Assembly: GCA_963965975.1 (NCBI GenBank)
Contig: OZ014411.1
Coordinates: 17,574,446 to 17,638,445, forward strand
Reading direction: 5' to 3'
Length of the DNA: 64,000 bases
Source of the DNA: Xestospongia bergquistia
Lineage: Eukaryota > Porifera > Demospongiae > Haplosclerida > Petrosiidae
Shown here: in pieces, positions 2,161 to 60,830 of the stretch
Numbering within the stretch: the stretch's first letter is position 1
Layout: every line of letters starts with the position of its first letter
Program-made: the position numbers and the translations under genes
The notes under the pieces: generated by a model
Database searches by the model: none
What the model saw: the letters and a program-made list of their open reading frames with translations, nothing else
What the model was told of the DNA's origin: nothing

Positions 2161-3240
2161 GTTAACAATATTCCAACAATACAAAAAAATAATGTTAGTA
2201 TTTATAACATGTTATATCTATTTTTTTGTAAAGGACATATTCAGATGAAAGTTATTATTGTAACATACGTTTAAAAATAATAGAGTAAATGAAAAAACAA
2301 CATTTCATTGAAAAAGTAGAAATTATATTACATTATATCACACTTACCTTTTATTATATTGTAAACAAGATATTAGCACATGAAATTATTACAGCAACAA
2401 AAACAAAGAAATAAAAGTAATGTTAGCAAAGTGACAACAATTTAAATTAGAAATTATATCACACTTACATGCTATAATGTTGAAATGGACACATTCAAAT
2501 AAGAAGTTATTACAGCAACACATATGTGAAAAAATAAGAACAATGTTGCTTCATTTACTCTATCAATTTTTCAAATTGAAACTTTTCATCTAAATATCTT
2601 TTTCACAATATACTAGGAAGTTAGTGTGATGTAATATGCTATAAATTGTATATGCTATAAATTTTTTGTATTGTTGTCATTTTGTTATTTTTTTTTCGTT
2701 TGACTTAATTTTAACCAAATTTTGTTGACTTTATTAAGTATAAATTATGCTCCATTATATCACGCTTACTTTCTTATTATATTGTAAAGGACACATTAAC
2801 AAAGAAGTTATTGCAGGACCAAAATGTTGAAACAAAAAAAAATTAGATTCAGATAAGAACTATTATAACACCACAAGTTTAATATCACAAAATAACAAGA
2901 ATGTATTGAATAAAATAAGAAATTATATCAAATTATAACACATTTTCCTTCTATTACATTGTAAAGGACATATTCAGATGACAAATTATTAAAGCACCAT
3001 AAATGTGAGCAGAAAGATGAAACAATCAAACTACAACAGTGTATGCCACAGCGTTAAAGGTTATTAAAATATGAAAAGTACCTAATGCTTAGGTTTATTA
3101 CTACCTCATTGTTAAGATAATGAATTTGTAGTATATATTCATCATTCTAAGTTTATTATTATATCTATGAAGTGTCTAGTTGATATCTTTTCACAGATTT
3201 AGTACATACATTTTTGTATGAAAATACACAATCATAGTTT
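2161..3240. repeat. Degenerate continuation of the ~120-bp repeat family
   Basis: The same cttac-NNN-ctattatattg core appears at about 2344, 2463, 2765 and 2940, with irregular spacing and diverged flanks. No exon was recognised on either strand in this stretch. Confidence 0.75.
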
Positions 3241-3247
3241 TAATTAC

Positions 3248-3346
3248 CTTAGTAACAATATTGATATCAGCTCCATGGTTGACAAGTACTTCAACAATCT
3301 CTGTTTGTCCTTCATAACTTGCATAATGAAGGGCTGCCCATCCTTC
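3248..3346 (-). CDS. Ankyrin exon A (GWAALHYA type)
   Basis: A 99-nt exon in phase 0, flanked by tataatag on the acceptor side and gtaatt on the donor side. It starts EGWAALHYASYEGQTEIVEV and ends in the typical NHGAD turn. It is nearly identical to exon C at 6416-6514. Confidence 0.88.
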
Positions 3347-6300
3347 CTATTATATAAACCATAAAATCATCAACTATAAATTAGAGCACTAATATACAAC
3401 AATAACAGTAGGAACATACACAGATATCATAAAAGTACCTTGTGTTATATATGTCCACAATGTTATCATATAACATACTACAATCATAAATTGTATACAT
3501 GCAGGTTTTTTGAACATCTATTACTAATAATTGTTTCTTTTTTGAAGAAGTCTTTGTACAGGTATTACCATCTATTCAATAAAGGTCAGGAGTATATATA
3601 GTATAATCTAAGTGACTAGTATATGACATAAAAGTATAAAACTATAACATTTAGGTATATACTATAAGCAAGCAGACTACACCTGACAATAAAATAACAT
3701 CCAAAAGTTAATGCCACTTTACTTATCAACTATTGCAACAACTCCTTTATTATATTATTTATAATACTACTTTGATAACCAATACTATCCTCTGATATTA
3801 ATATGACAAACTTTAGCTTATTAACAGTCTAGATATTAAAAGTTAGCTAATAACACAAAATTGTAAAGATTACAAAAAAAAACTATATACTAAGTAGAAT
3901 TCAACAATATATTGGTATTGTAATAATACTTAGCATCAAATAGCTCAATAATGTGAGATTTTGTAATTCCAAAATACCATTTTGTTGAATTTTAATAAAA
4001 ATTCATTTAAAATTATCAATTTTTATTTTCAACAAAAATACAAGAATATGATTTATATCATGACCGACCTTCACTATTGTAATATGTGAGTACTTGAATT
4101 GAACATTAATAATTATATTTAGGAAAATTGTTATTTTTATCATCTGTTGGTGGACAATAATTATCAAAAATGGTTAGGACACATGTTTAAAATTTTCACT
4201 TGTTTCTAATATAATAAAAAAAATTGTATTCTGATTCGATTCTGATACTTATTTATCTTCAACAGTCTTAAAAATAAATAATTCAGCTTTTATTATAACA
4301 AGATAGCAATTGATGACTGCCAATTATATATGGCTGTTGATATAACTTGTATACATGAAAACTTACTGCATCAAAAAGGTTTAAATTAGGTTCTTTCTTG
4401 ACTAAAATCATAACAATATCTTTGAACCCCTTCTTTGCTGCTAATATGACTGGGGTAAATCCATCCTATACATATAATAATAATTACATTAATATCAATT
4501 AATAGAATACATTATAACAGTTGTACATTACCTATAGTAACATTATTATTATATGTAGTCATATACAAACACATAAAACATTACAAAGCATCAGTCACAT
4601 CAACCACATACATGTAGAAAAACACTTGTCATTAATACAATTTAACACATTAGAGTGGTATATGCCCATACAAAAATTACTTATTTCTTAGTAGCATAGA
4701 TGAAAAACTAATGTACTGCAACAAGAATTTACAAAGTAATTTTATCACCACAAATGTGGAAACAAAACATAGGATAAAGTAAATGAAAACAATGCATTGA
4801 ATAAAACAAGAAATTCTATTAGATCACTTACAGACTATTATATTGTAGAGATGAAATAAAATGAGAAATAGTTATATCACCACACATTTGGAAACAAAAC
4901 AATAGGATAACAACAATGTATTAAATAAATATTACAAATTATATTACATTATAACAAACTTACTGGCTATTGTATTGTAAGGAACACATTCAGAAAACAA
5001 GTTATTGCATCAACAGAAAAAGAAAACATTAAAGTAAAGAAAATGACAACAATAAATTGAATAAAGTTAGAAATTATATTGCATTAAAACATACTTACTA
5101 TCTATTATGTTACAAAAAGCACATTCATATTAGATGTTGCAAATAATCACAGATATAGAAATGAAAACAAAAGAGGAAAATAATCAGGACAATGCTTTGA
5201 ATGATAATAAAAAATAGATTGCATTATATTTCACTTACAGTCTATTACATACATTGCCAAGAACACATTCAGATAACAAGCAATAAAGCATGACAATAGT
5301 TGAAAAAAAATATAGTAAACAGAATGACAACAATAGGTTGAATTAAATTAGATATTATATTCTATTATATCCCATTTACCCACTATTATATTGTAAAAGA
5401 CAAAATTCAGATGACAATTTATTACAGCACCACAAATGTGGAAAAATTAGAGCAAGCAAATGACAATAATGGATAGAATAAATTTGAAATTAAATTACAT
5501 TATACCACAACAGAAAAAAAAATTATTTTATTTAATTTCTTCTCATCTATTATATTATAAATGAATGTTCATATGACAATTATTATTTGAACACCACAAA
5601 TGTGAAAATGAAAACAATTAAGTCAAAAAATTACAACAATGAATTAAATAAAATTAGAAATTATATTGCATTATTGTCCCACTTACCCACTATAATATTG
5701 AACAGTACACATTCAAATCACAAGTTATTATAGCACCGCAAACATGTAAATGAAAATAATAGAGGAACAAATAGCAACAATGCCTTAAACAAGATTAGAA
5801 GTTATATTTTATCACACTTGTAAACTATTATGTATAAATGACACATACAGATGACAATATATTAGAGCACAAAATATAGAAATGAAAATAATAGCATTAA
5901 CAAAGTGACAATAATGTATTAAATAAAACTATATTTTTTATATCACACTTACAAACTATTATATTGCAAAGATCACATTTACATGACAAGTCATTGCAGA
6001 AACATAAATTTGGAAACCAAAAGGAGTGTAAACACAATGACAATAATATTTTTAATAAATTTTAAAATTATATAACTTTAAATTACACTTACTTTCTATT
6101 ATATTGCAGTGGACACATTCAGATGACAAATTATTAAAGCAATATAAATTTGAGCAGAAAGACAAAAATAATCAAATTACAACAGTGTATGCTACAATGT
6201 TAATGTTATAAAAAGATGTTATTTAATATGTTTACATAATACTTAAGAAAAGTACCTAATGCTTTGTTCAACAATTACCTCATTGTTAAGATATAATTAA

Positions 6301-9300: not shown

Positions 9301-11798
9301 TGTCATATAAAATATGACATGAAAACTTACTGAATTAACAAGCTCTAGATTGGCTCCTTTGTTGGTTAAAATAAACACAATATCTTTGTGTCCATTCTTT
9401 ACAGCTAACATAACTGGTGTAGATCCCTATATATACAATAATAAGGCCATAAATGCCAGGCAATAATACATCATAACATTGTGAAGAAAGCATTAACATT
9501 ACAACCTAATTATAGAACTACAGTTTTATAAAAATTAAAACAACAGAATAAACAAAGTGACAACATTACATTAAGTAAAACAAAAATTATATGACATTAT
9601 ATGACACCTACAACCCATTATTTGTAAAGAGAACATTCAGATGACAAGTTATTACAACACAATAAATGTGCAAACAAAAAAGAGTAAACAAAATGACAAC
9701 AGTGCATTGAAAAATTATATTATAGTTATTGATCACGCTTACCTGCCATTATATTGTTAATCAGATGACAAGTTATTATAGCACCACCAATGTGAAAACA
9801 AACAAAAAATGGAGTAAACAAAATAACACCAGTACATTGAGTAAAATTAGAAATTATAATACATTCACTATTATACTGTAAATAAAACATTCTGATGACA
9901 AATCATTACAAGATCACAATTGTGGAAACAAAAACAATAGAGTAAACAAAATGACTACAATCCATTGAATAAATTTGCAAATTATGACATGTTTTGTCTT
10001 ACTTCCTGTAAAGTTGTAAAGGTCCAAAATCAAATGACAAGTTATTATAGCACCACAAATGGAGGAAAAAAACAGAGTCAAAAAAATACACAGTAAATTG
10101 AATAAAATTTGAAATTTTAATACATTATATAATACTTAGCCACTAATATATTGTAAAGAGCATATTCAAATAACAAGTTCTTTCGGCAACACAATTTCAA
10201 ACAAAAATAATAGGAAATTAGAAATTATATTACATTATTAAAGACTTACCACCTAATGTATTGTAAATGAAACATTCAGATGACAAGCCATAACAATTTC
10301 GAAATGAAAACAATAGAGTGAACAATAATGAATTGGATCAACTTAAAAATTATATTATGTTTTATTACACTTACTTTCTAATGATTTGTAATGGACACAT
10401 TGAGTTCACAAATCATTAGAGCATAAAAAATATGGAAATGAAAAAATAAAGTAAACAAAAGACAACAGTGCATTAAATGAAATTTAAGATTCTATTTTAC
10501 TGTATTAACCTAATTAACTATTAAATTGTAAAGACCACATTAAGATAAGAAGTTCTTACAGTACCACAAATGTGGAAACAAAAATAATAGAGTAAGCAAC
10601 ATGACAATAGCATAGTAAGTAAGCTTATAAATTATATTACATTATATCATACTTACTTTCTAATTTATTGTAATTGACATATTAAGACAACAAGTTATTA
10701 GACCCCAATAAATTTGAATGGAAAAAAATAAAGTAAACAAAAGATAACAGTGCATTAAATGAAAGTTAAGATTCTATTTTACTGTATTAACCTAATTAAC
10801 TATTAAATTGTAAAGACCACATTAAGATAAGAAGTTCTTACAGTACCACAAATGTGGAAACAAAAATAATAGAGTAAGCAACATGACAATAGCATAGTAA
10901 GTAAGCTTATAAATTATATTACATTATATCATACTTACTTTCTAATTTATTGTAATTGACATATTAAGACAACAAGTTATTAGACCCCAATAAATTTGAA
11001 TGGAAAAAAATAAAATAAACAAATGACAACATTGTTTTGTATACAGTCAAATGACATAACTTCATATATTGTTAATGTAGTGAAATTGTAGTATATATAC
11101 ACTACCATTATAATAATATCTTTCTATGACTAGTTAATATTTGTTCTTACATGTAGCTTAAAGATTACATTAAAGCATACTTATTTTCATGATCGAAATT
11201 ACCCCAATAACAATGTTGATATCAGCTCCATGGTCGACAATTACTTTGACAATACCTGTGTATCCATGATAACTTGCATAATGAAGGGCTGTCCATCCAT
11301 CCTATTATAGAAACAAACAAACCATCAACTTTAATTAGACCACTACAATAACAATACAAATATATATAAACCTCTTATAACTATCTTGTGCTATATCTTT
11401 CTATTTAGTCATGATATAAGATACACTCATGCTTATATACATTTATTAATAATAGATTCTTTTTTAAAGAAGTGTTTGTACAGGTATTATCATTAATTCA
11501 ATGTTTTACATGAAAATAAAATAATGGAAAAGTTTCAACTTAATAATAATAGTTCAGGAACTTTCCACAAGTTCTTAGTGATTTAGAGTACATAGATGAT
11601 TTTCATAGTAACTAAGACCACAATGTTGTTCATTTTTTAAAGAAATTTATACAGACTAACTGCTAAATTTATATTTTTTTTGTACAACAAAATAGGTAGA
11701 CTCACCAAATCTACAAAATTTGCATTAGCTCCTTTTGAGAGAGAATCTGTAACTCCAAATAAATCTCTTTTCAAAGCAGATACAATTAAACTCTCATT
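3248..11798 (-). CDS. Ankyrin-repeat gene, eight recognised single-repeat exons (partial)
   Basis: Eight minus-strand exons, listed separately, each encode one ankyrin repeat: 33 residues in six, 32 in one and 31 in the first. All start after AG and end before GT in phase 0, so they join in frame in the order 11798 to 3248. Two exon types alternate: one with the core GWAALHYA and one with the core GFTPVILAAKKG. Ankyrin arrays are protein-binding scaffolds; the partner is not visible here. No initiator ATG, non-ankyrin domain or stop codon was identified. The gene probably continues below coordinate 1, and its 5' end must lie above 11798. Introns are 0.4-1.9 kb, much longer than in the other genes here, because they are filled with tandem repeats. 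Ankyrin identity is secure; the limits of the gene are not. Confidence 0.85.
4367..4465 (-). CDS. Ankyrin exon B (GFTPVILAAKKG type)
   Basis: A 99-nt phase-0 exon with donor GTAAGT. It begins DGFTPVILAAKKGFKDIVMI and is the sister of exon D at 7514-7612. Confidence 0.88.
4740..6200. repeat. ~120-140 bp repeat array in an ankyrin intron
   Basis: About ten diverged copies share the blocks cacttac-NNN-ctattatattg, ggacacattcagatgacaag and attacagcaccacaaatgtg. Representative cores lie at 4828, 4957, 5092, 5234, 5375, 5680, 5945 and 6086. No open exon was found. The family is the same as at 1-3240 and 9540-11040. Confidence 0.85.
6416..6514 (-). CDS. Ankyrin exon C (GWAALHYA type)
   Basis: A 99-nt phase-0 exon beginning KGWAALHYASYEGQTEIVEV. 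The ATG-initiated 85-residue frame across it is a shadow in the wrong frame. The first codon is AAA where exon A has GAA. Confidence 0.88.
7514..7612 (-). CDS. Ankyrin exon D (GFTPVILAAKKG type)
   Basis: A 99-nt phase-0 exon beginning DGFTPVILAAKKGFKDIVMI, with donor GTAAGT at its low-coordinate edge. Confidence 0.88.
8341..8439 (-). CDS. Ankyrin exon E (GWAALHYA type)
   Basis: A 99-nt phase-0 exon beginning EGWAALHYACYKGYTDIVEV. The acceptor is cag and the donor gtaatt. It is more diverged from A and C than they are from each other. Confidence 0.87.
9331..9426 (-). CDS. Ankyrin exon F, one codon short
   Basis: A 96-nt phase-0 exon beginning GSTPVMLAVKNGHKDIVFIL. It has 32 residues: the leading Asp present in exons B and D is absent. 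The donor is GTAAGT. Confidence 0.85.
9540..11040. repeat. ~120-140 bp intronic repeat array with a near-perfect 284-bp duplication
   Basis: This is the same repeat family as at 4740-6200. Within it, about 10470-10755 is repeated almost base for base at about 10755-11035 (offset 284 bp), a very recent two-unit duplication. No exon is visible. Confidence 0.88.
11203..11301 (-). CDS. Ankyrin exon G (GWTALHYA type)
   Basis: A 99-nt phase-0 exon beginning DGWTALHYASYHGYTGIVKV, with donor gtaatt and acceptor tataatag. Confidence 0.87.
11706..11798 (-). CDS. Divergent ankyrin exon H, most upstream one recognised
   Basis: A 93-nt phase-0 exon encoding 31 residues. It begins NESLIVSALKRDLFGVTDSL and ends KGANANFVDL, the usual end of an ankyrin repeat, although the N-terminal half is weak. 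The donor is GTGAG and the acceptor ttag. I could not find an upstream coding exon, so it may follow a first exon that I missed. Confidence 0.7.
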
Positions 11799-22500: not shown

Positions 22501-22529
22501 GTAGAGTAAATTACACAAGAACGGACATA

Positions 22530-22820
22530 TCACTTTCGGCCGCATCTAGCAGGATAAACTACCAAGAGAATTGGCATTTCTAAAATACTGAAATGAATTT
22601 CGCTGTTATCAAAACACATTGAAGGAATTATAAAAGATTCAGAAAGCTCTTCTGAGCAGCGACAGTCTTTTCCAAAAAAAATCGGAAGCATGGGTGCGTG
22701 GACAAGTATCACGTAAATTAATTCATCCAGCTCCTCAAACTCCTTGAAGAACAAAGCTGAGCAAGAGATATAGTCGTTGCTATCGAGTACTGACTGAGCT
22801 ACAACAATATACTCAAAGTT
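22530..22820 (-). CDS. Coding-like terminal exon, unrecognised
   Basis: An open frame of 96 codons ends in TGA at 22530, just downstream of an in-frame stop at 22821-22823 that overlaps a possible acceptor (aaaaatag). Composition is protein-like (acidic and aromatic residues, six Cys, e.g. FFGKDCRCSEELSESF and LLVVYPARCGRK), unlike the AT-driven frames around it. No initiator ATG precedes it, so it would be a last exon. I do not recognise the family. It is followed 970 bp downstream by the start codon at 21559 on the same strand. Confidence 0.4.
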   Translation of the reverse strand, partial: NFEYIVVAQSVLDSNDYISCSALFFKEFEELDELIYVILVHAPMLPIFFGKDCRCSEELSESFIIPSMCFDNSEIHFSILEMPILLVVYPARCGRK

Positions 22821-22829
22821 CTATTTTTA

Positions 22830-23452
22830 TGTTAACTGATGATAGTTTCTCGACAAAAATTAGTTGAGTGAGTGTGGTTGATAAAATCTTCCACGCTTGC
22901 AAGGTGCTTTTCTGGGCATTTTTTGTGCATTTAATTAGATGTGATTGCTTTTAAATGATTACTGAATTATTGGTTCAGAACTTATTGTGTTTCACTATCT
23001 GTAACTGTACTCTATTCATAATGAAATTATATTTACTAATTTTTCAAATTCTGAATAATACTTGATTACTAATAAGTCTCCTTCTCATTATAGGTAATTT
23101 TTGTTTTATCCATTATTATTATTGATTGATCTATTTATAATAGTCTCATAATCTAAATATATTGTCTACAACCAAAAGCTATGGCTATTTTTATCAAGTA
23201 ATGAGTGAACAATAAAAGTCATACAATTAAAACTTTACTATCTGAAAACAGGTTGTTGTTTAGGAAATCAGCAGAATAGGTGTGGCCATAATTATTCACT
23301 AACACATATAGGTAGATATAGGTAGGTAATGTATATTATAATAAAGTAAAGGCTGTTAAAAGGTTCAATGCCAACTGACAAGGTGTTACATTATGCAAGC
23401 ATATATGGTAACATGTTTCAGGTGGTCAATTAAAAGTTTCATTAAATGACAT
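22830..23452. other. Non-coding 3' flank of the PHD gene
   Basis: AT-rich DNA between the PHD exon stop and the unrecognised exon. No motif was found. Confidence 0.5.
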
Positions 23453-23628
23453 TCAAGAGTTTGGTTCATCTAGTTTAGATAGATTATTACATGTAGAACA
23501 ATACCAAGTCCCTCTTGGTTTCCTCTTAAGATTAGCACATTCAAAATGCCACCAGCCAATTGAGCAATTTGCATTGTCACAATAAATCATTCTGCCCAAC
23601 TGCCCCTGCCTGCAAATGCAGTACTTTT
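23453..23628 (-). CDS. Terminal exon: ING-type PHD finger
   Basis: The exon starts after gatgtag in phase 1 and ends at TGA. It reads EKYCICRQGQLGRMIYCD, continues CSIGWWHFEC, and ends with WYCSTC plus a short tail. The spacing C-x-C-x10-C-x4-C-x5-H-x2-C-x12-C-x2-C is the C4HC3 zinc pattern of PHD fingers. The MIYCD and WWHFEC stretches, with the Trp two residues before the His, are typical of ING-family fingers that bind trimethylated H3K4. About 52 residues make up the finger, followed by about 12 more. The phase matches every exon of the upstream array, which is the strongest evidence that the array is genuinely exonic. No ING N-terminal domain was identified upstream. Confidence 0.85.
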
Positions 23629-26600
23629 CTACATCAAATATTATTGCAAGTGAGCAATATATGTGTTATATATACCTATTGGGGACTCAACAATGGTTGT
23701 CATTTGAAATTCAGAACATGTTTGAAACTGAGAATGTGTCAGAGACAGAGTACCAGAGGCTAGATTATCATAACTATAAATAATACAGATAATAACAGAC
23801 AAACTGACCTATTAGAGACTTGACAGAGGTTGTCTTTTGAGACCGAGAACGTGTCTGAGATTGAGTACTAGAGGCTAGATTATTATAACAATGAATAACA
23901 AAAAAGATAACAGACAAACTGACCTATAGAAGACTTGACAGAAGGTTGCCTTTTGAGACCGAGAACATGTCCAAGATTGAGTACTAGAGGCTAGATTATT
24001 ATAACAATGAATAATATAAAAGAAATAGACAAACTGACCTATAGGAGACTTGATAGAGGTTGTCTTTTGAGACTGAGAACATGTCAGAGACAGAGTACCA
24101 GAGGCTAGATTATTATAACAATAAATAATATAGAAGATAACAGACAAACTGACCTATAAGAGACTTGACATTGGTTGCCTTTTGAGACCGAGAACATGTC
24201 TGAGATTGAGTACTAGAGGCTAGATTATTATAACAATGAATAATATAAAAGAAATAGACAAACTGACCTATAGGAGACTTGACAGACGGCTGCCTTTTGA
24301 GACCGAGAACATGTCTGAGATTGAGTACTAGAGGCTAGATTATTATAACAATGAATAATATAAAAGAAATAGACAAACTGACCTATAGGAGACTTGACAG
24401 ACGGCTGCCTTTTGAGACTGAGAACATGTCCAAGATTGAGTACTAGAGGCTAGATTATTATAACAATGAATAATACAAAAGAAATAGACAAACTGACCTA
24501 TAGGAGAATTGACAGTGGTTGTCTTTTGAGACCGAGAACATGTCCGAAATTGAGTTCTAGAGGCTAGATTATTATAATAATGAATAATATAAAAGAAATA
24601 GACAAACTGACCTAAAGGAGACTTGATAGAGGTTGTCTTTTGAGACTGAGAACATGTCAGAGACAGAGTACCAGAGGCTAGATTATTATAACAATTAATA
24701 ATATAGAAGATAACAGACAAACTGACCTATAAGAGACTTGACATTGGTTGCCTTTTGAGACCGAGAACATGTCTGAGATTGAGTACTAGAGGCTAGATTA
24801 TTATAACAATGAATAATATAAAAGAAATAGACAAACTGACCTATAGGAGACTTGACAGACGGCTGCCTTTTGAGACCGAGAACATGTCCAAGATTGAGTA
24901 CTAGAGGCTAGATTATTATAACAATGAATAATACAAAAGAAATAGACAAACTGACCTATAGGAGACTTGACAGTAGTTGTCTTTTGAGACCGAGAACATG
25001 TCCGAAATTGAGTTCTAGAGGCTAGATTATTATAATAATGAATAATACAAAAGAAATAGACAAACTGACCTATAGGAGACTTGACAGACGGCTGCCTTTT
25101 GAGACCGAGAACATGTCCAAGATTGAGTACTAGAGGCTAGATTATTATAACAATGAATAATATAAAAGAAATAGACAAACTGACCTATAGGAGAGTTGAC
25201 AGTGGTTGTCTTTTGAGACCGAGAACATGTCCAAGATTGAGTACTAGAGGCTAGATTATTATAACAATGAATAATACAAAAGAAATAGACAAACTGACCT
25301 ATAGGAGACTTGACAGTGGTTGTCTTTTGAGACTGAGAACATGTCCGAGATTGAGTTCTAGAGGCTAGATTATTATAACAATGAATAATATAAAAGAAAT
25401 AGGCAAACTGACCTATAGGAGACTTGACAGTGGTTGTCTTTTGAGACTGAGAACATGTCCGAGATTGAGTTCTAGAGGCTAGATTATTATAACAATGAAT
25501 AATATAAAAGAAATAGACAAACTGACCTATAGGAGACTTGACAGTGGTTGTCTTTTGAGACCGAGAACATGTCTGAGATTGAGTACTAGAGGCTAGATTA
25601 TTATAACAATGAATAATATAAAAGAAATAGACAAATTGACCTATAGGAGACTTGACAGTTGTTGCCTTTTGAGACCCAGAACATGCCTGTAACATAGTTC
25701 TAGAGGCTAGATTATTATAACAATGAATAATATAAAAGAAATAGACAAACTGACCTATAGGAGAGTTGACAGTGGTTGTCTTTTGAGACCGAGAACATGA
25801 CTGAGATTGAGTACTAGAGGCAAGATTATTATAACAATGAATAATATAAAAGAAATAGACAAACTGACCTATAGGAGACTTGACAGTTGTTGCCTTTTGA
25901 GACCCAGAACGTGCCTGTAACATAGTTCTGGAGGCTAAATTATTATAACAATGAATAATATAAAAGAAATAGGCAAACTGACCTATAGGAGACTTGACAG
26001 TGGTTGTCTTTTGAGACCGAGAACATGACTGAGATTGAGTACTAGAGGCTAGATTATTATAACAATGAATAATATAAAAGAAATAGGCAAACTGACCTAT
26101 AGGAGACTTGACAGTGGTTGTCTTTTGAGACCGAGAACACTTCCGAGATTGAGTTCTAGAGGCTAGATTATTATAATAATGAATAATACAAAAGAAATAG
26201 ACAAACTGACCTATAGGAGACTTGACAGTGGTTGTCTTTTGAGACCGAGAACATGTCTGAGATTGAGTACTAGAGGCTAGATTATTATGACAATAAATAA
26301 TATAAAAGAAATAGACAAACTGACCTATAGGAGACTTGACAGTTGTTGCCTTTTGAGACCCAGAATGTGCCTGTAACATAGTTTTGGAGGCTAAATTATT
26401 ATAACAATGAATAATATAAAAGAAATAGGCAAACTGACCTATAGGAGACTTGACAGTGGTTGTCTTTTGAGACCGAGAACATGTCTGAGATTGAGTACTA
26501 GAGGCTAGATTATTATAACAATGAATAATATAAAAGAAATAGACAAACTGACCTATAGGAGACTTGACAGAAGGTTGCCTTTTGAGACCGAGAACATGTC

Positions 26601-29600
26601 CAAGATTGAGTACTAGAGGCTAGATTATTATAACAATGAATAATATAAAAGAAATAGACAAACTGACCTATAGGAGACTTGACAGTTGTTGCCTTTTGAG
26701 ACCCAGAACGTGCCTGTAACATAGTTTTGGAGGCTAAATTATTATAACAATGAATAATATAAAAGAAATAGGCAAACTGACCTATAGGAGACTTGACAGT
26801 GGTTGTCTTTTGAGACTGAGAACATGTCTGAAATTGAGTACTAGAGGCTAGATTATTATAACAATGAATAATATAAAAGAAATAGACAAACTGACCTATA
26901 GGAGACTTGACAGTGGTTGTCTTTTGAGACCGAGAACATGACTGAGATTGAGTACTAGAGGCTAGATTATTATAACAATGAATAATACAAAAGAAATAGA
27001 CAAACTGACCTATAGGAGACTTGACATAAAGTTGCCTTTTGAGACCGAGAACATGTCCAAGATTGAGTACTAGAGGCTAGATTATTATACCAATGAATAA
27101 TATAAAAGAAATAGACAAACTGACCTATAGGAGACTTGACAGTGGTTGCCTTTTGAGACCCAGAACGTGCCTGTAACATAGTTCTGGAGGCTAAATTATT
27201 ATAACAATGAATAATATAAAAGAAATAGGCAAACTGACCTATAGGAGACTTGACAGTGGTTGTCTTTTGAGACCGAGAACATGACTGAGATTGAGTACTA
27301 GAGGCTAGATTATTATAACAATGAATAATATAAAAGAAATAGACAAACTGACCTATAGGAGACTTGACAGAAGGTTGCCTTTTGAGACCGAGAACATGTC
27401 CGAGATTGAGTACTAGAGGCTAGATTATTATAACAATGAATAATATAAAAGAAATAGGCAAACTGACCTATAGGAGACTTGACAGTGGTTGTCTTTTGAG
27501 ACCGAGAACACTTCCGAGATTGAGTTCTAGAGGCTAGATTATTATAATAATGAATAATACAAAAGAAATAGACAAACTGACCTATAGGAGACTTGACAGT
27601 GGTTGTCTTTTGAGATCGAGAACATGTCTGAGATTGAGTACTAGAGGCTAGATTATTATGACAATGAATAATATAAAAGAAATAGACAAACTGACCTATA
27701 GGAGACTTGACAGAAGGTTGCCTTTTGAGACCCAGAATGTGCCTGTAACATAGTTTTGGAGGCTAAATTATTATAACAATGAATAATATAAAAGAAATAG
27801 GCAAACTGACCTATAGGAGACTTGACAGAAGGTTGCCTTTGAGACCCAGAACGTGCCTGTAACATAGTTCTGGAGGCTAAATTATTATAACAATGAATAA
27901 TATAAAAGAAATAGGCAAACTGACCTATAGGAGACTTGACAGTGGTTGTCTTTTGAGACTGAGAACATATCGGAGATTGAGTACTAGAGGCTAGATTATT
28001 ATAACAATGAATAACAAAAAAGATAACAGACAAACTGACTATAGGAGACTTGACAGAAGGTTGCATTTTGAGACCGAGAACATGTCCGAGATTGAGTACT
28101 AGAGGCTAGATTATTATAACAATGAATAATACAAAAGAAATAGACAAACTGACCTATAGGAAACTTGACAGTGGTTGTCTTTTGAGACCGAGAACATGTC
28201 TGAGATTGAGTACTAGAGGCTAGATTATTATGACAATGAATAATATAAAAGAAATAGACAAACTGACCTATAGGAGACTTGACAGAAGGTTGCCTTTTGA
28301 GACCCAGAATGTGCCTGTAACATAGTTTTGGAGGCTAAATTATTATAACAATGAATAATATAAAAGAAATAGGCAAACTGACCTATAGGAGACTTGACAG
28401 AAGGTTGCCTTTGAGACCCAGAATGTGCCTGTAACATAGTTCTGGAGGCTAAATTATTATAACAATGAATAATATAAAAGAAATAGGCAAACTAACCTAT
28501 AGGAGACTTGACAGAAGGTTGCCTTTTGAGACCGAGAACATGTCCAAGATTGAGTACTAGAGGCTAGATTATTATAACAATGAATAATATAAAAGAAATA
28601 GACAAACTGACCTATAGGAGACTTGACAGTGGTTGTCTTTTGAGACTGAGAACATGTCTGAAATTGAGTACTAGAGGCTAGATTATTATAACAATGAATA
28701 ATATAAAAGAAATAGACAAACTGACCTATAGGAAACTTGACAGTGGTTGTCTTTTGAGACTGAGAACATATCGGAGATTGAGTACTAGAGGCTAGATTAT
28801 TATAACAATGAATAACAAAAAAGATAACAGACAAACTGACTATAGGAGACTTGACAGAAGGTTGCATTTTGAGACCGAGAACATGTCCGAGATTGAGTAC
28901 TAGAGGCTAGATTATTATAACAATGAATAATACAAAAGAAATAGACAAACTGACCTATAGGAAACTTGACAGTGGTTGTCTTTTGAGACCAAGAACATGT
29001 CCAAGATTGAGTACTAGAGGCTAGATTATTATAACAATGAATAATATTAAAAAAATAGACAAACTGACCTATAGGAGACTTGACAGTGGTTGTCTTATGA
29101 GACCGAGAACATGTCTGAGATTGAGTACTAGAGGCTAGATTATTATAACAATGAATAACAAAAAAGATAACAGCCAAACTGACCTATAGGAGACTTGACA
29201 GAAGGTTGTATTTTGAGACCAAGAACATGTCTGAGATTGAGCATTAGAGGCTAGATTATTATAACAATGAATAATATAGAGGATAACAGACAAACTAACC
29301 TATTGGAGACTTGGAGATACCTGCAGCACCTGATGTGGTATATAAACTAATTCAATAAATTAACACTATACCTTCATTTAAACTGTTCTCTAGTTCTTCA
29401 GGCATTGTAAACAATGAGAAACCTAATTACAGTATAATATAACAGTAATGATCTTTCTTCTTCTAAAATCTTTGAAAAAATGGATGATTTTTGAAGAACT
29501 GCAGATTGTGAAGGTTGTTCAAGAGGATGACAGACAAAAGGATACGTATTACTTTCAGCAATTGCAGTGGAAGGACAACTTTGAAAACGAGGATCAAATG

Positions 29601-31510
29601 TTGAGATAAAAAATGGAAAATATGGAAGAGTGTCTTGTGGGTAATATGGGTATCTAGTATCTGTTGGATAATGTGGGTATTGATAAAACATACGAGTGGT
29701 GGCATCATTAGCAACTGTGTCATTGTGGGACAATTGGGAACTCAAATCAAGCTCTTGATCAATGAATCCACTACCATCATTAGTTGATTGATGCTTTTTT
29801 TCCATTGGTTATAGCAATCATCAGAAGTAATATCATAACCTTCTTGAAACCTTTTTTGAAATCTTGATTCTTCCTCTTTTGTGAATACAGCTTCTTGAGT
29901 AATGGGAGGCCTGTATCGTTGTGCAGGGCTATATAGTGGTATAAATTTCAGTCCTGTGTGCTGTGCAAGTGTGCTTGTGGCATCTTTTCTCAATGGAACA
30001 ATAACATTCCTGTTCAAGAAGTAGATTCCTGTGTATTTGAATCCAGCTTGAATATTTTTCATCGTCATTGCACATGTCCATGCCTCACTAAATAGTTTTG
30101 AAAAGGTGAATGTTGTGACTACCTTGCCCGGATTATCCACTAAAATCTTTCAGCATACCTGCCTCCATGAAGACTTTAATGGTCCAAATGGACCTTTATC
30201 CAGAGGCTGGGTTTCATGTGATGAATGTGAGGGTAGACAAAAAATGATCACTTTCTTTTCTGCTGCCTTACTAATTAGAATGACCATCGAGTAGGAATAG
30301 AATTGGTCGTACAGTTGGGGTATGAGGCAAAAAATGATGGACAAACCATAAATCAAACAATTCACCATTGATCCACCCGGATTCTGAGAGACCATACATA
30401 GTCCCGGTGACTTCTCCATCAACCATTGCTTGTTTCAGACACTTTCGGTCAAATATCACAAATGGTGGCATGCAATATCCAGCAGCATTACATGATGCAA
30501 GAACTGTAATCTGTGTTTTATTTCCAGTTGTTATTGCTCTTGGATGTTTGACACCTTTAGCAGTCACATCCTTCGGAGGTTTTGGATCTAGTGGCATTCC
30601 AGTTTCATCGCAGTTGAACAATTGGGTGGGCTTTGAAACAAGGTCGTTTTCCTGAATTGTTTGCTCTAAAATATCGAAATAATTATTCAAGACATCTGGA
30701 GTGCAGGCTGAAGCACGATTGTTAGCAATTTGCTCAGTAATTCGGAGAGAAAGTTCTGAATGTCGTTTCCTGAATCCCTCCCACCAACCGCTAGAAACTG
30801 TCACATTCCTCTCTTTTCGATCAACTGTAGCTTGTACTAGCGATATCACTTCCTTCCTTGTACATGGAAATCCTATTTTTGCAGTTTCCAATAAAAATGT
30901 TACCAGTTCTTCTTCTTCTTCGTCTGTTAGATACTTTTGACCACTCTTACTACCACTTAAAACTTTTCCTGAAACATGATCTTGAATAGTAGATTTGGGG
31001 ATTTGGTACTCTTCTGCTGCCTGTCTCAAAGACAATCCACTCCCAACTGCTTGACATTCCTGTTCTAAGTTCTCAGAAGTCCAAGTTATATATTTTAGAG
31101 GTCGAGCAGAACAAGATTGTGGAATGTCATGTGTGAACTTGGATGAATAGAGTACACGCCCACTAAGAGGAAGTGATTTACTTGCTATTTGATGAGACTA
31201 CAGATAAGTATGTCAATGATAGATGAATAATATACACAACCTACCTATCAGAGATTCGTTACTAGCTGTCTTGAGATATTGAGAAAGTGTTTGAAAGAGA
31301 GTACTTGAGTTAAAGTGAGACACTAGGTGCATAACAACATCAAAGGATAATACAAAGGAAACTGACCTGTTGGAGACTTAACAGTGGTTGTTACCTTTTC
31401 AGATAGAGAATGTGTTTGAGTTATTATAGCGATAATATCGGTTGATGCAGGATAAATAACACTATAGAATTTACCTCTATATGTACTTGGTTGCCCAGAT
31501 CAAACATTTG
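23453..31510 (-). CDS. Mini-exon array gene ending in a PHD finger, with an embedded transposase exon
   Basis: The following minus-strand segments share phase 1 at both splice edges and join in frame in principle. They are diverged Ser/Thr-rich exons at about 31445-31367 and at 31322-31245; a pogo/Tigger-like exon about 31185-29398 (damaged); exon 29422-29372; exon 29320-29300; about 49 tandem 66-nt exons; an 84-nt exon 23759-23676; and a terminal PHD exon 23628-23453. Typical repeat peptides contain SSTQSQTCSRSQKTT and VKSPI. Introns are 44-48 nt and start GTCAGT, GTAGGT, GTTAGT or GTATAT. A C-terminal ING-type PHD finger predicts a nuclear protein that reads histone H3 tails, with a long Ser/Thr/Gln-rich spacer. 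The 5' end is not found; a 40-nt exon-like segment at 31510-31471 is tentative. Many array units have a 67-nt exon, which would shift frame if all were spliced in. Confidence 0.6.
23676..23759 (-). CDS. Last, diverged Ser/Thr-rich exon of the array (84 nt)
   Basis: It is flanked by ctag on the acceptor side and a GTATAT donor, phase 1 to phase 1, and is open throughout in the array frame. It contains ASGTLSLTHSQFQTCSEFQ and ends TTIVESPI. It is 18 nt longer than the array unit and clearly related. Divergence with the frame kept suggests past selection on the encoded peptide. Confidence 0.7.
23760..29299 (-). repeat. 114-bp tandem array, about 49 units, each exon plus intron
   Basis: The period is 113-114 bp, giving about 49 copies in 5.6 kb. 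On the minus strand each unit contains aataatctag, then a 66-nt block beginning CCTCTAGTACTCAATCTCAG, then ctatag and GTCAGTTTGTCTATTTC. The 66-nt block is a phase-1 exon and the other 48 nt are a T-rich GT..AG intron with a TAATAAT branchpoint-like motif. Because 66 and 48 are both multiples of three, unspliced units also stay open, which explains the long read-through ORFs such as the 449-codon frame at 25030-26379. Variants include a TMLQARSGSQ type and units with one extra base (67-nt exon). A higher-order repeat of 7 units (801 bp) is seen at 27656-28066 versus 28457-28867. Confidence 0.9.
29300..29320 (-). CDS. 21-nt phase-1 micro-exon
   Basis: The acceptor is gtgctgcag and the donor GTTAGT. 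The exon GTATCTCCAAGTCTCCAATAG gives GISKSPI in the array frame and matches the 3' third of an array exon. Confidence 0.55.
   Translation of the reverse strand, partial: VSPSLQ
29372..29422 (-). CDS. 51-nt phase-1 exon upstream of the array
   Basis: It is flanked by gtaattag and a GTATAG donor, is open in phase 1 at both ends, and encodes FSLFTMPEELENSLNE. It overlaps the tail of the transposase frame in a different frame. Confidence 0.5.
29398..31185 (-). pseudogene. pogo/Tigger-like transposase exon, damaged
   Basis: Domain order is that of Tc1/mariner-superfamily pogo transposases. First comes a Psq-type helix-turn-helix (TWTSENLEQE through LSLRQAAEEYQIPKST), then a CENP-B-type region. 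The DDE domain follows, with FNCDETGMP near 30605, LLDGHSN near 30285 and HETQPLDKGPFGPLK near 30205: all three acidic positions are present. Lesions are a frameshift just after LLDGHSN (about 30280), an in-frame TGA at 30150-30152, and a frameshift at a seven-T run, 29795-29801. The open frame extends upstream to about 31185, where an AG allows phase-1 joining with the preceding Ser-rich exon. No terminal inverted repeats were found. It is either an insertion or a captured exon of the PHD gene. The lesions argue against a working transposase unless they are assembly errors. Confidence 0.75.
31245..31322 (-). CDS. Diverged 78-nt Ser-rich exon
   Basis: Acceptor cacctag, donor GTAGGT, phase 1 at both ends. 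It contains FNSSTLFQTLSQYLKTASNE and ends SLI, alignable with the array peptide SSTQSQTCSRSQKTT..VKSPI. The next intron is 47 nt to one AG, or about 60 nt to a second AG that keeps the transposase frame. Confidence 0.65.
31367..31445 (-). CDS. Diverged Ser/Thr-rich exon (5' edge uncertain)
   Basis: The 3' edge is exact: SEKVTTTVKSPT followed by a GTCAGT donor in phase 1, and the next intron is 44 nt. Upstream the frame stays open to about 31500 and no clear acceptor could be chosen. Confidence 0.55.
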
Positions 31511-31514
31511 AAGA

Positions 31515-33050
31515 CTGATATAAACATAAATAATCTAATTGTAGCAGCAGTAGACAAAGTTTCAGTTGAACAAAAATTATTTAACAAGAGGCTATTACAA
31601 CACTAGTGCATTAAGGACTGGGTCCATCCACTTTGTTCTTAAAATAGTAATGTACACTTGTAGATCTCATTGGGTTTGCCAAGTATTTACAAATAGAATG
31701 AAACCACACATGACAATGACATAACATATGCTAGTCCCTATGCTTGTATAATTTGGCCTTAGATTTAGATATAGAACTATTATAAGGTAAACTCATCATT
31801 CACTGCAAAATTTTTGAAGAATATTTGTGAATTTTGCAAACTTATAAATTGTACAATTTTATGATGAGAGTGATAGGAAATTCTTGTAAATTTCCATTTG
31901 CAAATGCTCCCAAAGAAGCTATTTGTCAAATATTCTTCCTTGAAAATTTTGGCAGTGTATGATGTTATCCTGCTGTAATCTTGTCAGTGCTGGTCACGAT
32001 CACAACAAAAGCCCTTTTTGGGTTAAAATATTACTAAAAAGTCATATGGGAAAAACACTAGGCTATTATTATAAAAGCTGTAGCTTGCTATTGCACTTTT
32101 GGTTTTAATGTCAACAAAAAGTGAAAGACCTTAACATATGGTTTCTCCACAACTGTAAGTTCTCCAGTTTGTTTTGTCATATTTGAGAACACTGCCAATA
32201 ACTTTAGCACTTCAATCAGGTATATCTCAAATAAGAAAGCAGACATCAATAATATGTAAGTTAATTAGCCTCAACTCTATCAGATAGCTATTCTAGTTTT
32301 CCTTTAAAGTAACGGGAACACTGTCATAGTTAATTACTTTATTATGGAAACTGTTTCTTTTGAAGGTATGTGCATGAATATCTTGAATATGAATGTAAGA
32401 GAGATAGGAAAATCTCCAAGGTGTCTTATGTCATGTTTTATACTTATGGAGGCAATTAGTGTTGTTTTAGTAGACATAAGGTGTTTTAGTTTTAGTTTAG
32501 TTATAGCAAAAGGTAAAATTTAATTTTAGTTATAGTATTAATGTTAATTTTAATTTAGTTATAGTATTAATGTGAAATTTAATTTAGTTTTACTATTAGT
32601 TATAGTCATATTTAACAAGCAAACACTTTTTTCTTCAGGAAGATATATACTCCACTTTTTCTTGGCCTACCAGGACTACTAGCTGTAGGCAACTAGGTAT
32701 GCTTTCTAGTTAAGCTTAACTATAATAACTAGAAAATCACTCATGCGTGGAAGGTTAAATGCACAAACAACTCAGGCATGCACTACCTAACATGATAATC
32801 ATGTTAAATGCTTTAATATGAAGAGGTATAAAAGTTGTTATGAGTATTATTTCCTAACAACTCAGAAGTTGATGACCTGCCTTGTAATATATCAGAGTCT
32901 GTAAAATTATTTTACACAATTTATACTATTGTAGTGATTGAATTATGTAACAGAAATAACTCTTTCAAAATAAATAATATTGAATGTATTAGATGTAGTA
33001 GACCTGTTATTATTCACTACTATTAATTTCAGTAATCTACAACTGAGACA
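31515..33050. other. Non-coding, with a degenerate TTTAGTTATAG repeat
   Basis: No gene was recognised. At about 32470-32610 a degenerate tandem repeat of tttagttatagtattaatg occurs. Sequence from about 32945 onward is shared with 52835 onward. Confidence 0.5.
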
Positions 33051-42269: not shown

Positions 42270-43900
42270 AACAAAGCAGAAATGCTTTATCAGCTTATTT
42301 GGGACTTTATGAAGAGTTAGGCAAGACATGTATTACAACTATAACAACAGTGACAGAATTATTTGTTGTTTCTAATGAAATTGATTTTTATTGAAGCACT
42401 AAATTATTCATAAACTTCTGTATTTTAATTAATAATGAGAGTGAAACTAATAGTGTAAACATATGCAAAATATAGATTTATACTGTCACAATAAAATTGG
42501 AACAGGAAAAAACTGAACCTTGAATGCAATTGTGGCCAAAAAATTGGACCAAAGTTCAAGCTTACATTATGGCAGCAAAAATGGACCAATTTTACCCAAA
42601 ATAGACCCAGTCCAGTTTTAGCAATCCAAAAGCAGACTGGCCCCTACAAAACTGTCTGAATTGTTTTGTAATTGTGAACTCATCATGACAAGTGATGACA
42701 TATATTTAGCTTTTGCCTCCTTCCTTAAAAGACTGCAAGTTTCAATCTATCAACAAATTAAATAATTAAATTACTAACAACTCAGTAACTATATAGACAA
42801 CAGACTATATAGTGCTAGATATTTGAGAGTGTTAATTTGTAGTTAAAGATTGTATGGAAAATCACCTTACTCCTTGAATGAGTGAAAGAGAAAGAGAGAC
42901 AGGAATATAGCAAATAAGAGTAAGCATAATGTAAATAATTAGTAGGACATGTAACTTGTTAAATCTTGGTAATGTTATTATTGATGTAATACATTGTATA
43001 GTTGATATGAAACAAGTTATTAATACAAAAGGTTCTAATAGATGAGTATCACTTCAATAGTCATGTAGTCATGTGGTAGGGGTTCTAATGTGAATTACAG
43101 AATTTCAAGGTTGGAGATTGGTTTTAATATTCATGAATCATAATAACCCAGATTTGTGCCTAATTAACTATTAATTGTATACAAGTAGAAGTAGTTGTAC
43201 CAAAAGAGGGAAATTTTTGAGGCCAATAATTTTGAAGTTTACTTCTAACAAAGCCAATTTGTAAAATAACTTTTGAATATTAATAATCTAGGCAAGCCTT
43301 GCTATTTTATTCTATTGTTGTATTATCATAGATAATAGATTATTTCTAACCTATTATTTATGATTGAAAATATTCAATCGTGTTTAGTTTTTTATGATGT
43401 TTGTGATGCTTGAATTACTGAGGAAATTACATGCACTAAACAATATACTGTTCATTTCTGGCTCGGCATAGGTGAGAGTAAGAGATACTTAAGACTTACC
43501 TCTACTAATTTAGAACATTCAGATTTGATTGCATTAAAGTGTAGAGATAAATATAATCAGCTCAGGTTTGCCAGATCTTGAGTTCAATAGTTTAGAAATA
43601 ACAATGTGTTATTAAATACCAAGTTATTGTTTAGTAAATGCACAATGTAGAGTTAAACCTATTCACATTAGACGTTAGTAAAATCATAGAAATTATATGA
43701 CATGATGCAAAACATGACAGAATACTAATGTTGTATAGTATCTATGGTAAAACTTAACTCTTAGTCTAAATGCTTAATATCTAGAAGTAAATGTGCGTGT
43801 TTACGGTGCAAACAGGCTCCATATATACACTAATAACTAGCATCAATAATGTATTCTAATTTAGTGTTGATGGGTGTTGAATAGCACTGAGCATTTCCCA
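42270..43900. other. Non-coding 5' flank of the DUF1917-like gene
   Basis: No gene was recognised. A short repetitive patch with accaaa..ttggacc lies at 42480-42650. Confidence 0.5.
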
Positions 43901-43907
43901 AAAGGGC

Positions 43908-45042
43908 ATGTTTACAATGGCTGCAAAAGCAAATTCAACCCAAACGACAGAGATTTACAGGGGTATGTTTAAAACTATTAAACGTTGTTAATTACTGTAG
44001 TTATTATCTTATGATCAACATGCAGACATGCAACTACACGACTATATTTTATTTACCTACCTACCTACCTACCATCTATCTATCTATCTACGTATATATG
44101 ATCTACTATGCTGTTTATATAGAGTATTCTAAAAGATATGACGAAAGTGTGGAAAGTCTGCAAAAGCCTACAGAAATCTACAATCACTTTTGGGTTCGCA
44201 CATCCACACCACGCCAAGCTGCAAGGTCTCGTATTTATGGCAAATGGCTCATATTTAGACATTTTGATAACATAGATGAACTATGGGGGAAAATTCGAAC
44301 TGCTGTTTTCACTAAAAATTTATGTGGGTGTGTGTTTGCAAAATGCTCAACAATGAAATATAATCCATCTCAAAAAGGTCCTGGGCCTTGCACTACATGT
44401 GTGATTCAAGTTTATACAGAAGAGCACAATATGGAGGATGTTGGCTTTAAGCTTGTTGAGATAGCAGAACAGGACATTAAATACAAACCTGAAAAACACA
44501 CTCTGGCCAAAATGTATGTACACACAGGTGCTGGTAAAACTACAATCAAAACGATATTCTGGAACAATGGAAAACCATCTTTGGATAACCAAGGTCAGTT
44601 TTGTTTTGGAGCTCCTGGATGTCATGATTCATGGCATCTTAATGTGGTCAAAGCTTCAAAGAAATTTGCTACTGAAGAAATTATTGGAAGGTGGATTATC
44701 CAGTTTAATAATGAAGACCTAACTCACTTTTGGCATGTCTTAAAGGAAAAGGTTGAATCTGACACTGAATACTATGGAGTTATTAAAATGGTATGTCCTT
44801 CAAAAGTGGATCATTATTCAGCAGAAGAGAAAGCTGCTTTTGAATTTTATGTCAGTGAAGATTGGAAAGATGTTGTGGGTCAAAAATTGATCAAGCTTGT
44901 TTCAACAGACATATCATTTGAACGAAAGTTAAAATATAGTACCGCAGTTAAGAGCAAATTCCATCCTTCTAAGATACTTTACTGGAATAATGGTGAACCA
45001 GGTTATGTCAAAATCCTTAAACAACCAAGAATTCCCAAGTAG
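43908..45042 (+). CDS. DUF1917/Bles03-like protein, two exons, internally duplicated
   Basis: Exon 1 is 43908-43962 (ATG at 43908 or 43917) and ends at GTATGT in phase 1. Exon 2 runs from the AG at 44121-44122 to TAG at 45042. The product is about 321-324 residues, starting MAAKANSTQTTEIYRGEYSK. Two similar halves are visible. Half one runs from GKWLIFRHFDNIDELW through MKYNP, YTEEHN and IFWNNGKPS. Half two runs from GRWIIQFNNEDLTHFW through VCPSK and LYWNNGEPGY. The GKW..F / W..I..AV / YT.. / W-rich pattern resembles the DUF1917 (UPF0696, C11orf68/Bles03) family, an eIF4E-like fold; molecular function unknown. No signal peptide or membrane segment, so probably cytosolic. The 160-nt intron holds a (CTAC)/(CTAT) microsatellite at 44051-44091. 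Three damaged relatives lie nearby, so this is the living member of a local family. Confidence 0.75.
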
Positions 45043-51690: not shown

Positions 51691-52730
51691 ATGGTGTCTA
51701 TGACACCAGGTATGTATAAAACATTACAGAAACAGGTATGGGATCTCTTATATAACATCACAATTTACCTTTTTTATATTATACAGAACAATATTCACAG
51801 TATTGTTATAGAAGTAAAGAAAGTCTTTAAAAGCCATCTGAAATCTACGATCACTTTAATGTTATCGCAGATGTTTCAATACCAGACAAGAAAGTAAATA
51901 TTATTGGTAAATGGCTCGTTTTTAAACACTATGATGAAATTGATGACACCTGGGAAAAGATTCGAGCTTCTGTCGTGACTGATAATCTACAAGGCTGTAT
52001 ACATGCTGTATGCACCACTATGAAATACAACCCTACAAAGGAAGGTCCTGGACCCAGTACTACTGGTGTGATAGGCGTTTATACAGAAGAGCACAATATA
52101 GATGCAATTGGTTTCAAACTAATTGAAATAGTACAACACGATATCAAGTAAAAAACTGAGAGTGATTCTTTGGCAGGAAAATATGTGCACACAGGTTGTG
52201 GAAAAGTTACCATCAAAACAATTTTCTGGAATAATGGGAGACCATTATTTGTATGTGAGGATAAGCCATGCTATAGAACATCCAGATACAAGGAGGATAT
52301 ATGGCATCGCAATGTTGTTGAGGCTCCTAAAGAGTTTGTTCCACAAGAAATCTTTGGAAGGTGGATTCTAGAGCTGGAAAATAAAGGTCTGACTCAATTA
52401 TGGCACATTTTAAAGGACAAGATTGAATGTAAGACTAATAATTTTGGAGTTGCTAGAATGATGTGTCCTCCAAAAAGAAACCATTGTTCAGCAGAAGAGA
52501 AAGCTGTTTTTCTATTGTATGTGTCCAAGAGATGGAAAGATTCAGTTGGTTATAAATTAATCGAGTTGTTGAAAACAGATATAGTATTTGAACAAAAAAG
52601 GAGAAGTGATTCTGATGATAGAAGTTCTCATCGTTATCAGACTCTATACTGGAACATTGGTGAACCAGCTTATGAAATTGTAACACGACCTGGAATCACC
52701 AACAATTGGAGGACTGGAGAAGATATATAA
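51691..52730 (+). pseudogene. DUF1917-like paralogue with premature stops
   Basis: Exon 1 (51691-51709, MVSMTP plus one base, GTATGT donor) and the acceptor at 51810-51811 copy the intact gene's layout. From about 51825 one frame aligns end to end with the intact protein (GKWLVFKHYDEIDDTWEKIR, YTEEHN, IFWNNGRP, GRWILELENKGLTQLWHILK, LYWNIGEPAYE). It is interrupted by two TAA codons, where the intact copy has Gln (CAA) and Tyr, and the start of exon 2 is shortened so that the exon junction is out of frame. The second half is open for 186 codons (52170-52730). It appears to be a young pseudogene. Confidence 0.75.
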
Positions 52731-59329: not shown

Positions 59330-60830
59330 AACTTATGCAGAATATTCCTATACACAATGAGAATATTTGAATCAAAGATATTGTATAATTAGATAAAAAG
59401 ATAGAAATCTTTACCTACAATGCATGATTTTGAGATGAATATAATCTAAAAATGTAAATATTGACCATCACTAAATTTGATAAAAAGGTTATCAGTTAGT
59501 TTATCATTGCTATTATTAAGCAACCACTACAAAAGACAATAGGTCATTATATCCTCATAGTAACAAAGCAAGTTATAGTTTATAGTAATTGGACAAAATT
59601 GCTGTAGATATCTTGTGATAATAAGTCATACATTGACACAAACTCATTTTATGGGTGTGGCTAATACAAAATTATTGCTGACATGTTTAAATTTTGTAAA
59701 CTTACTTCAAATCACCAATTTGCCAAACTAATTGCATCACCAATACTTCCCATTGTACAGTTAATTAAATGGAAAACTTAAAAATGGCCTGAAACTATTT
59801 AAGATCATTATACACACATATATTTACATTAGGTAACATAATGACAACATAACTCATGAATGTTATGTCTTACCTTTTGTAATTCAATAGGAAATTTGTT
59901 ATTATTTAATAAAACAATCCATGCAATATCTTCTAGTATAAAATATACTGAAATTCTACAAAAGAAGAAGCTATTATAGGTTTTTAATTATAATTAAATA
60001 CCTAGTACATCATTTACATTCACTACTTTTAGAGCTTGCTTTTGAGTTTTAAGGCAAAATGAGATATATCAATCTCCTATAAAAGTTACATTCAAATATG
60101 CTGTAACGATAAACTGAACTTTATAAGGTTGATATTAATATCTTCAATAGATGATATATGTAATTACTATATAGTGAGATTTATTGGTAAAAGATTAATT
60201 TTGGTAGATTAGTTTATTTATATAACTTGCCAAATTAAAAGATAGTCAAATTTAACTTTTAAGGCCTTCCTGCCACACCCAAGACATGTGTAACTGAAGC
60301 TGTCAATGTATATGTGTCTACCATAAACAATCACTAGTGTAATATGGCTCTGTTATAAAATGTAGGATATTTCTCATAACAGCATTCAATACACTCTTAC
60401 AAATCTGATATCTCCTCATAACGCTTTCAATGGTTACTTCATTAAACTAGGTGTGGTTATTAAAATATGCTTGATTTGTCAAATGTAATCTTGTCAATAT
60501 ACATATTTTCAATTTCAACAAACATTTTCCTTACCAAATTGCAATAAAACCAGCTATAACTTATGTCGAGGTTTGACTATATATATATATTATAATACAG
60601 ACTTACTTTATTAAGACAGACAACTCTTTTACATACTACACAGTGTTATACTAAAATAAGTAGCTTAAACCCAAAGCAGAAAATTGATGGTAGGGGTCCT
60701 GAAGTAGGCGTGGTTATTACAAAGGGTTAATGGTTATTACAATTAACAAGTATAGATAATTAGTTATGAAATTAATAAATAATAATTAATTTTTTAAATT
60801 AATTAATAATAAATTAATTATCAGTGACGT
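59330..60830. repeat. Upstream region of the JmjC gene, duplicated at 33.1-34.95 kb
   Basis: Block-by-block matches (for example gcagaatattcctat, caaagatatt, ctgccacacccaagacatg, acatactacacagtgt) occur in the same order and orientation. No gene was seen inside. An AT-rich patch of taattaat repeats lies at 60760-60825. Confidence 0.75.

Follow-up and report, generated by a model that had tools for sequence, protein, structure and literature searches.

At positions 23721-29313 of a genomic stretch of the sponge Xestospongia bergquistia lies a 114-bp tandem array of the kind that is normally masked, and the locus raises the question of whether this repeat is coding and, if so, to what sort of gene it belongs. 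The stretch analysed, called the window below, comprises 64,000 nt (contig OZ014411.1, positions 17,574,446 to 17,638,445). An earlier note, made from the sequence alone, had read its minus strand as a gene of about 49 mini-exons ending in an ING-type PHD finger, the product being a chromatin reader on a repeat stalk.

Exon structure of the array and the PHD finger exon

The array, its flanking exons and the final exon were located as follows.

23721-29313: 114-bp tandem array (repeat period)
23676..29250, minus strand: array of 49 phase-1 exons (36 of 66 nt, 12 of 67 nt, one of 84 nt) with 48/49-nt introns (exon parse)
23676..23759, minus strand: 84-nt terminal array exon, phase 1 (AG before, GT after)
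29300..29320, minus strand: 21-nt exon, phase 1, ahead of the array (AG before, GT after); anchor for measuring array length
29372..29422, minus strand: 51-nt exon, phase 1 (AG before, GT after; homologous exon in another copy)
31245..31322, minus strand: 78-nt array-like exon, upstream of the transposase exon (AG before, GT after)
23453..23628, minus strand: last exon, complete ING-type PHD finger (C4HC3) followed by a stop (pattern, Pfam, structure match)

On the minus strand, the array parses into 48 homogenised units plus the 84-nt terminal exon, and, with phase 1 as the starting point for every exon, none of the 49 contains an in-frame stop. The unit described earlier, a 66-nt phase-1 exon followed by a 48-nt GT..AG intron, thus holds throughout for phase but not for length: 12 of the 49 exons measure 67 nt and shift the frame, since each carries one extra base, and units 4 and 11 have 66 nt only if the donor is taken one base upstream. 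The introns begin with GT and are 48 nt long in 41 cases and 49 nt in 7; the one after unit 30 ends in TTG instead of TAG. The diverged exons of 78, 51, 21 and 84 nt proposed at both ends are all present, with AG before and GT after.

The final exon is read in the same phase as the array exons and encodes a complete C4HC3 finger with ING similarity, as had been proposed. Among solved structures it is closest to ING proteins, with ING4 as the best match (PDB 1wen, E 3.1e-16) and further ING-family matches to PDB 2vnf and 2g6q. The alignment to ING4 (49/58 residues) keeps the Y, M and W positions, which we take to be the H3K4me3 cage of ING. H3K4me3 binding is a prediction from this likeness, and the finger differs from those of the ING family in being attached to a transposase (see below).

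The phase agreement had been considered hard to obtain by chance. Within the window, the dominant 48-nt introns are themselves divisible by three, so that the array is also open without splicing, over 529 aa; the window alone is therefore unable to demonstrate splicing. It is the other copies of the same element that lend the argument its strength.

A decayed transposon copy

Between the 78-nt and the 51-nt exons lies a transposase frame of 308 codons, which the reading as a gene of about 49 exons had overlooked. The corresponding features are:

30271..31197, minus strand: N-terminal part of a pogo/Tigger-like transposase with HTH_psq, HTH_Tnp_Tc5 and the start of DDE_1 (open frame and Pfam)
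29398..30149, minus strand: decayed rest of the transposase exon, in shifted frames (comparison with other copies)
22504..22544, plus strand: terminal inverted repeat at the gene-3' end, GAGTAAATTACACAAGAACGGAC..., nominal length (homology among copies stops here)
22504..32815, minus strand: whole element copy, given as the extent of homology to other copies; 5' end incomplete

HTH_psq, HTH_Tnp_Tc5 and DDE_1 score above the Pfam cut-off both in the window copy, which represents family A, and in a second family, B. The DDxD spacing was read from protein P0001 (99% identical to B), where the invariant residues are D123, D230 and D266 with 35 residues between the last two; this lies within the range of 29-36 given for pogo/Tigger in the main text of PMC7386202. 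In the remainder of the window transposase, the final coding part present in other copies is absent and the frame runs into the 51-nt exon. A TA adjoins the terminal inverted repeat at 22502-22503, and the homology among copies ends at a common repeat, GAGTAAATTACACAAG..., beside this TA. A close variant of the window repeat begins the family B elements. The window copy has its terminal inverted repeat at the gene-3' end only, the other side being cut off at 32815.

We conclude that the locus is a dead, 5'-truncated copy of a pogo/Tigger-like DNA transposon. It combines neither an open transposase with an in-frame array nor two terminal inverted repeats, and it probably makes no full-length product, since 12/49 array exons are frame-shifted, the transposase is disrupted and the 5' end is missing. 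That this copy was domesticated and serves the host is hardly credible to us: the PHD exon is indeed intact, but the transposase is broken, array units are shifted in frame and the 5' end is lacking.

Copies of family A in the genome

Searching the genome (146.5 Mb, 21 contigs) returned 130 transposase matches, 73 matches to the PHD exon, 36 of them with at least 71% identity (window exon included), and at least 192 matching places for the array, many of which fall within the window array itself. Transposase, array and PHD exon follow one another in this order on one strand in 9/9 loci with two overlapping fetched stretches, and likewise at C2:14.046-14.051 Mb and in the window. By genome searches and Pfam, the window locus is not a single-copy gene outside transposons. 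A host chromatin-reader gene built of mini-exons would account for the phase agreement and the complete ING-type finger, but the transposase exon within the same gene, the 36 PHD-exon matches at or above 71% identity, the dispersed arrays and the terminal inverted repeat with its TA make this very improbable, and we rejected it for the window locus based on the transposase and the dispersed copies. Of the earlier interpretation, the symmetric phase-1 mini-exons leading into an ING-type finger and the variable array length stand; the host chromatin reader on a stalk does not, as array and PHD exon form the 3' part of a transposase gene present at dispersed loci, of which this copy is broken.

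Array length was measurable in 19 of the 30 other family A loci, namely those with both borders inside the fetched stretch, and corresponded to 1.7-15.7 units (115 bp each) compared with 48.4 in the window, although these loci are not all independent because some, namely three near C2:16.0 Mb and two on C1, appear to have arisen by segmental duplication. In the 30 other loci, 185/200 parsed exon rows are divisible by three, a few exon rows being parser artefacts, compared with 41/152 introns (after removal of 7 rows with negative length), the commonest intron length being 49 nt. These figures carry the claim of phase agreement beyond chance, which the window alone, open when unspliced, would not. 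Most introns of the window array are 48 nt long, and one exon in four is out of frame. Since the window copy has frame-shifted units and a long array, we infer a satellite-like expansion of that array following the loss of the copy's coding constraint or role.

Two observations on other parts of these elements were made. Transposase copies on C5, C6, C7, C10 and C15 are mostly 65-176 kb apart and have equal numbers of stop codons, which suggests large duplications carrying a dead copy. Further, families A and B both have array-like exons on the upstream side of the transposase exon as well (window 31245-31410; upstream part of L051); by eye, these resemble the array of their own family, giving the impression of a transposase exon lying within an older array.

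Family B, a young family with mostly open copies

The family B transposase exon is about 70% identical to that of family A in amino acids. Seven near-identical copies of 5168-5480 bp were found (including copies near C2:1.557, C10:3.795 and C1:1.800 Mb), all flanked by TA on both sides and bearing terminal inverted repeats of a type common to A and B; their transposase exons are 99.05-99.89% identical among all seven. Every copy contains an array, with a unit different from that of family A (54- or 60-nt exons, 49-nt introns). All 70 parsed array exons are divisible by three and free of stops, and all 63 introns are 49 nt long. With predicted splicing, five of the seven copies have an uninterrupted frame from ATG to the PHD stop (956, 970, 976, 978 and 1014 aa), including two upstream exons placed by eye (MAEGYTLT...); the remaining two are broken inside the transposase exon. 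The five open copies hold 10, 11, 11, 11 and 13 array exons. As these arrays differ while the transposase exons are 99.05-99.89% identical, unit number changes within the time of few substitutions.

The same design in eight families

Twelve further loci (L070-L081), hand-picked from the transposase matches and not a random sample, contained arrays in 12/12 cases. Altogether, in eight element families (A-H) a tandem mini-exon array separates the transposase from a PHD-type finger at the C terminus; each family has a unit of its own, and all are in phase 1. The six additional families are:

Family C (L070): 12/12 exons divisible by three, 0 stops
Family D (L071, L080): nine 57-nt exons and one of 48 nt; PHD finger partly broken
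Family E (L072): 9/9 exons divisible by three
Family F (L073-L077, L079): repeat unit holding two exons; 47/48 exons divisible by three
Family G (L078): 5/6 exons divisible by three; 51-nt introns
Family H (L081): 7/10 exons divisible by three, 3/10 out of frame; 54-nt introns

Left out of these counts were 12 false exons in C, four rows in D (35, 35, 67 and 126 nt) and one nested row each in E and F; the exons of family C come from a separate parser run, those of A, B and D-G from another parser. For 10/10 exon types, the commonest exon is divisible by three and has an open phase-1 frame, compared with 5/20 open among the other frames. A PHD-type finger after the array was detected by pattern or Pfam in 9/12 of loci L070-L081 and by eye only in L072 (family E, with an in-frame stop) and L081 (family H); in L076 it was looked for after the array and not found. 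The window finger scores 22.2 bits with the Pfam PHD profile, under the cut-off of 24 bits, and PHD scores lie under the cut-off in families A, C and D.

No clear similarity between the units of the eight families emerged from 28 pairwise comparisons with 200 shuffles each; the best pairs, D-F and A-B, were reached by 3/200 and 4/200 shuffles, respectively. An old common origin of the eight units may nevertheless lie behind this dissimilarity. In the family G locus (C4:5325000-5331000), extra open frames lie between array and PHD finger at about 3290-4112 in gene orientation; their look suggests Ulp1-like peptidases, and Pfam matched only the PHD finger in a search of this segment.

These families bear on another reading, in which the transposon contains an ordinary satellite that only by accident parses into exons and is never spliced. 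The window copy taken by itself would suit it, with 12/49 exons frame-shifted and an open unspliced frame of 529 aa, as would the greater variability of array exons over introns. Families G and H and mostly the window have introns divisible by three, and unspliced reading is compatible with length there. However, exons divisible by three alternate with introns that are not in family B and most other family A copies, eight arrays of differing sequence are all in phase 1, and the spliced family B frames run uninterrupted over 956-1014 aa. We regard an accidental exon parse as improbable. A continuous repeat protein translated without splicing was likewise considered, as a minor variant; it is compatible with the window, but family B and the other family A copies argue against it.

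Selection and homogenisation

The transposase is, judged by substitution patterns, under constraint; dN/dS between A and B is 0.13, a rough value since dS is about 1.5. For the array exons, N/S ratios are 1.15-1.39 in other family A copies, 1.44-1.5 in the window and 0.9-2.76 in family B (18.5 by cells for the 60-nt exons, with few changes), giving no sign of amino-acid constraint in A, the window or B. We make no claim of positive selection: counted on distinct changes, family A gives a weak ratio of 1.39 (87 N, 24 S), many of the copies are dead, and family B offers few changes. Variation per site in family A is 0.13-0.19 in array exons compared with 0.07 in introns. These patterns would fit a linker whose composition and frame matter and whose exact residues do not. 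The array repeat may also be filler, since its exons are without amino-acid constraint and, in A, more variable than the introns. Homogenisation locus by locus was rejected: mean unit identity within loci (0.784-0.870) is similar to the mean between loci (0.833), and units are hence not locus-specific.

A proposed length-variable tether

Building on the observed gene order, exon phases, repeats and open frames after predicted splicing, together with the variation in unit number, the terminal inverted repeats and the TA flanks, we are fairly confident that the window holds a dead family A copy and that intact members of the group consist of a transposase, an array of phase-1 mini-exons acting as a length-variable tether, and a PHD reader. 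An intact gene would comprise short upstream exons, the large transposase exon, a few small exons, the mini-exon array and the PHD exon. After splicing of the introns, predicted here from sequence, the array would encode a low-complexity linker with Ser/Thr and Arg/Lys, probably a flexible, disordered tether between the DD35D transposase and the histone reader. Unequal exchange or exon skipping could raise or lower the number of units with the frame kept intact, because each consists of an exon divisible by three and a tiny intron, phase 1 in and out; the tether between catalytic core and PHD finger could thereby change length very fast. The finger may then guide the transposase on chromatin. 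For family A, guidance to active chromatin is a natural guess, because its finger keeps the ING residues of the presumed H3K4me3 pocket.

The main rival to the tether is splicing control, in which the array acts at the RNA level: tiny introns would limit the production of full-length transposase, and partly spliced RNA would yield a shorter protein without the PHD finger. The P element is controlled by splicing. Retained 49-nt introns would shift the frame in family B and most family A copies, and family A introns are more uniform than the exons, as such a role would have it. Nevertheless, the kept exon frame and its lead into the PHD finger are left unexplained, and we consider this reading unlikely, though worth keeping in mind.

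Taking the tether further, we suggest, tentatively and at somewhat less than even chances, that a group of sponge pogo/Tigger-like transposons keeps a constantly renewed mini-exon array in which unit sequence turns over between families whereas position, phase and exon-intron design stay. Array length itself would be selected, as an evolvable tether setting the place or the strength of transposase action on marked chromatin. A normally masked tandem repeat thus appears to be the coding mini-exons of a transposase gene, in a design that recurs in eight families with dissimilar units. This makes it possible to test by what means selfish genes might select targets with histone readers, and also how tandem arrays of coding exons come into being, undergo homogenisation and vary in number between copies whose remaining sequence is >99% identical.

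Relatives and known systems

Homologues in related species had been suggested as a check. Among the 120 protein matches listed, three carry an organism name: Amphimedon, Dysidea avara and a symbiont assembly of the sponge Iophon. The Amphimedon protein (LOC109582507 isoform X4, P0036) shows the same layout of transposase, four repeats of about 20 residues recognised by eye (KPSGYSTRGSKTTNASNSSV...) and an ING-like PHD finger, whereas the Dysidea protein (P0037) has transposase and ING-like finger without an obvious tandem array. Both were read at the protein level. When the tail of the Amphimedon protein served as query, the only match was that protein itself, and no relatives were confirmed among GTDB genome contigs.

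Several known systems couple a mobile-element enzyme to a histone reader or use tiny exons. RAG1/RAG2 is a DDE recombinase working with a PHD histone reader via a flexible hinge. The present elements share with it, and with RAG-like transposons, the pairing of DDE enzyme and PHD reader, but RAG2 is a separate protein, the transposase superfamily is another and an exon array is lacking. Chromodomain integrases of chromoviral LTR retrotransposons likewise end in a histone reader, but enzyme class and reader differ and they have no exon array. Schistosome micro-exon genes contain many tiny symmetric exons permitting length variants; these, however, encode secreted host proteins, and their units are not a homogenised tandem array.

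The Tigger family of the pogo superfamily is reported from Porifera in the main text of PMC7386202. With pogo/Tigger as treated there, our elements share the DD35D spacing of DDE_1, N-terminal HTH domains, terminal inverted repeats and TA flanks; the C-terminal PHD finger and the mini-exon array set them apart, the words PHD and intron each occurring 0 times in that main text. In open-access papers, no description was found of mini-exon arrays in a transposase or of a PHD-tailed pogo/Tigger with such arrays. The element belongs to a known superfamily, and its PHD tail and mini-exon array are apparently undescribed in the open-access literature.

Other features of the window

Two further tandem arrays, both AT-rich, lie at window positions 1-2218 (354-bp period) and 10342-11031 (282-bp period). 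On the plus strand, the open frames at 43891-45042 and 52152-52730 are alike by eye, the first with a Bles03 Pfam match, and are perhaps paralogous host genes. On the minus strand, 55222-59332 holds several open frames, one that we would call JmjC-like in look (without a Pfam match) and one with ankyrin repeats, which perhaps together form one multi-exon gene.
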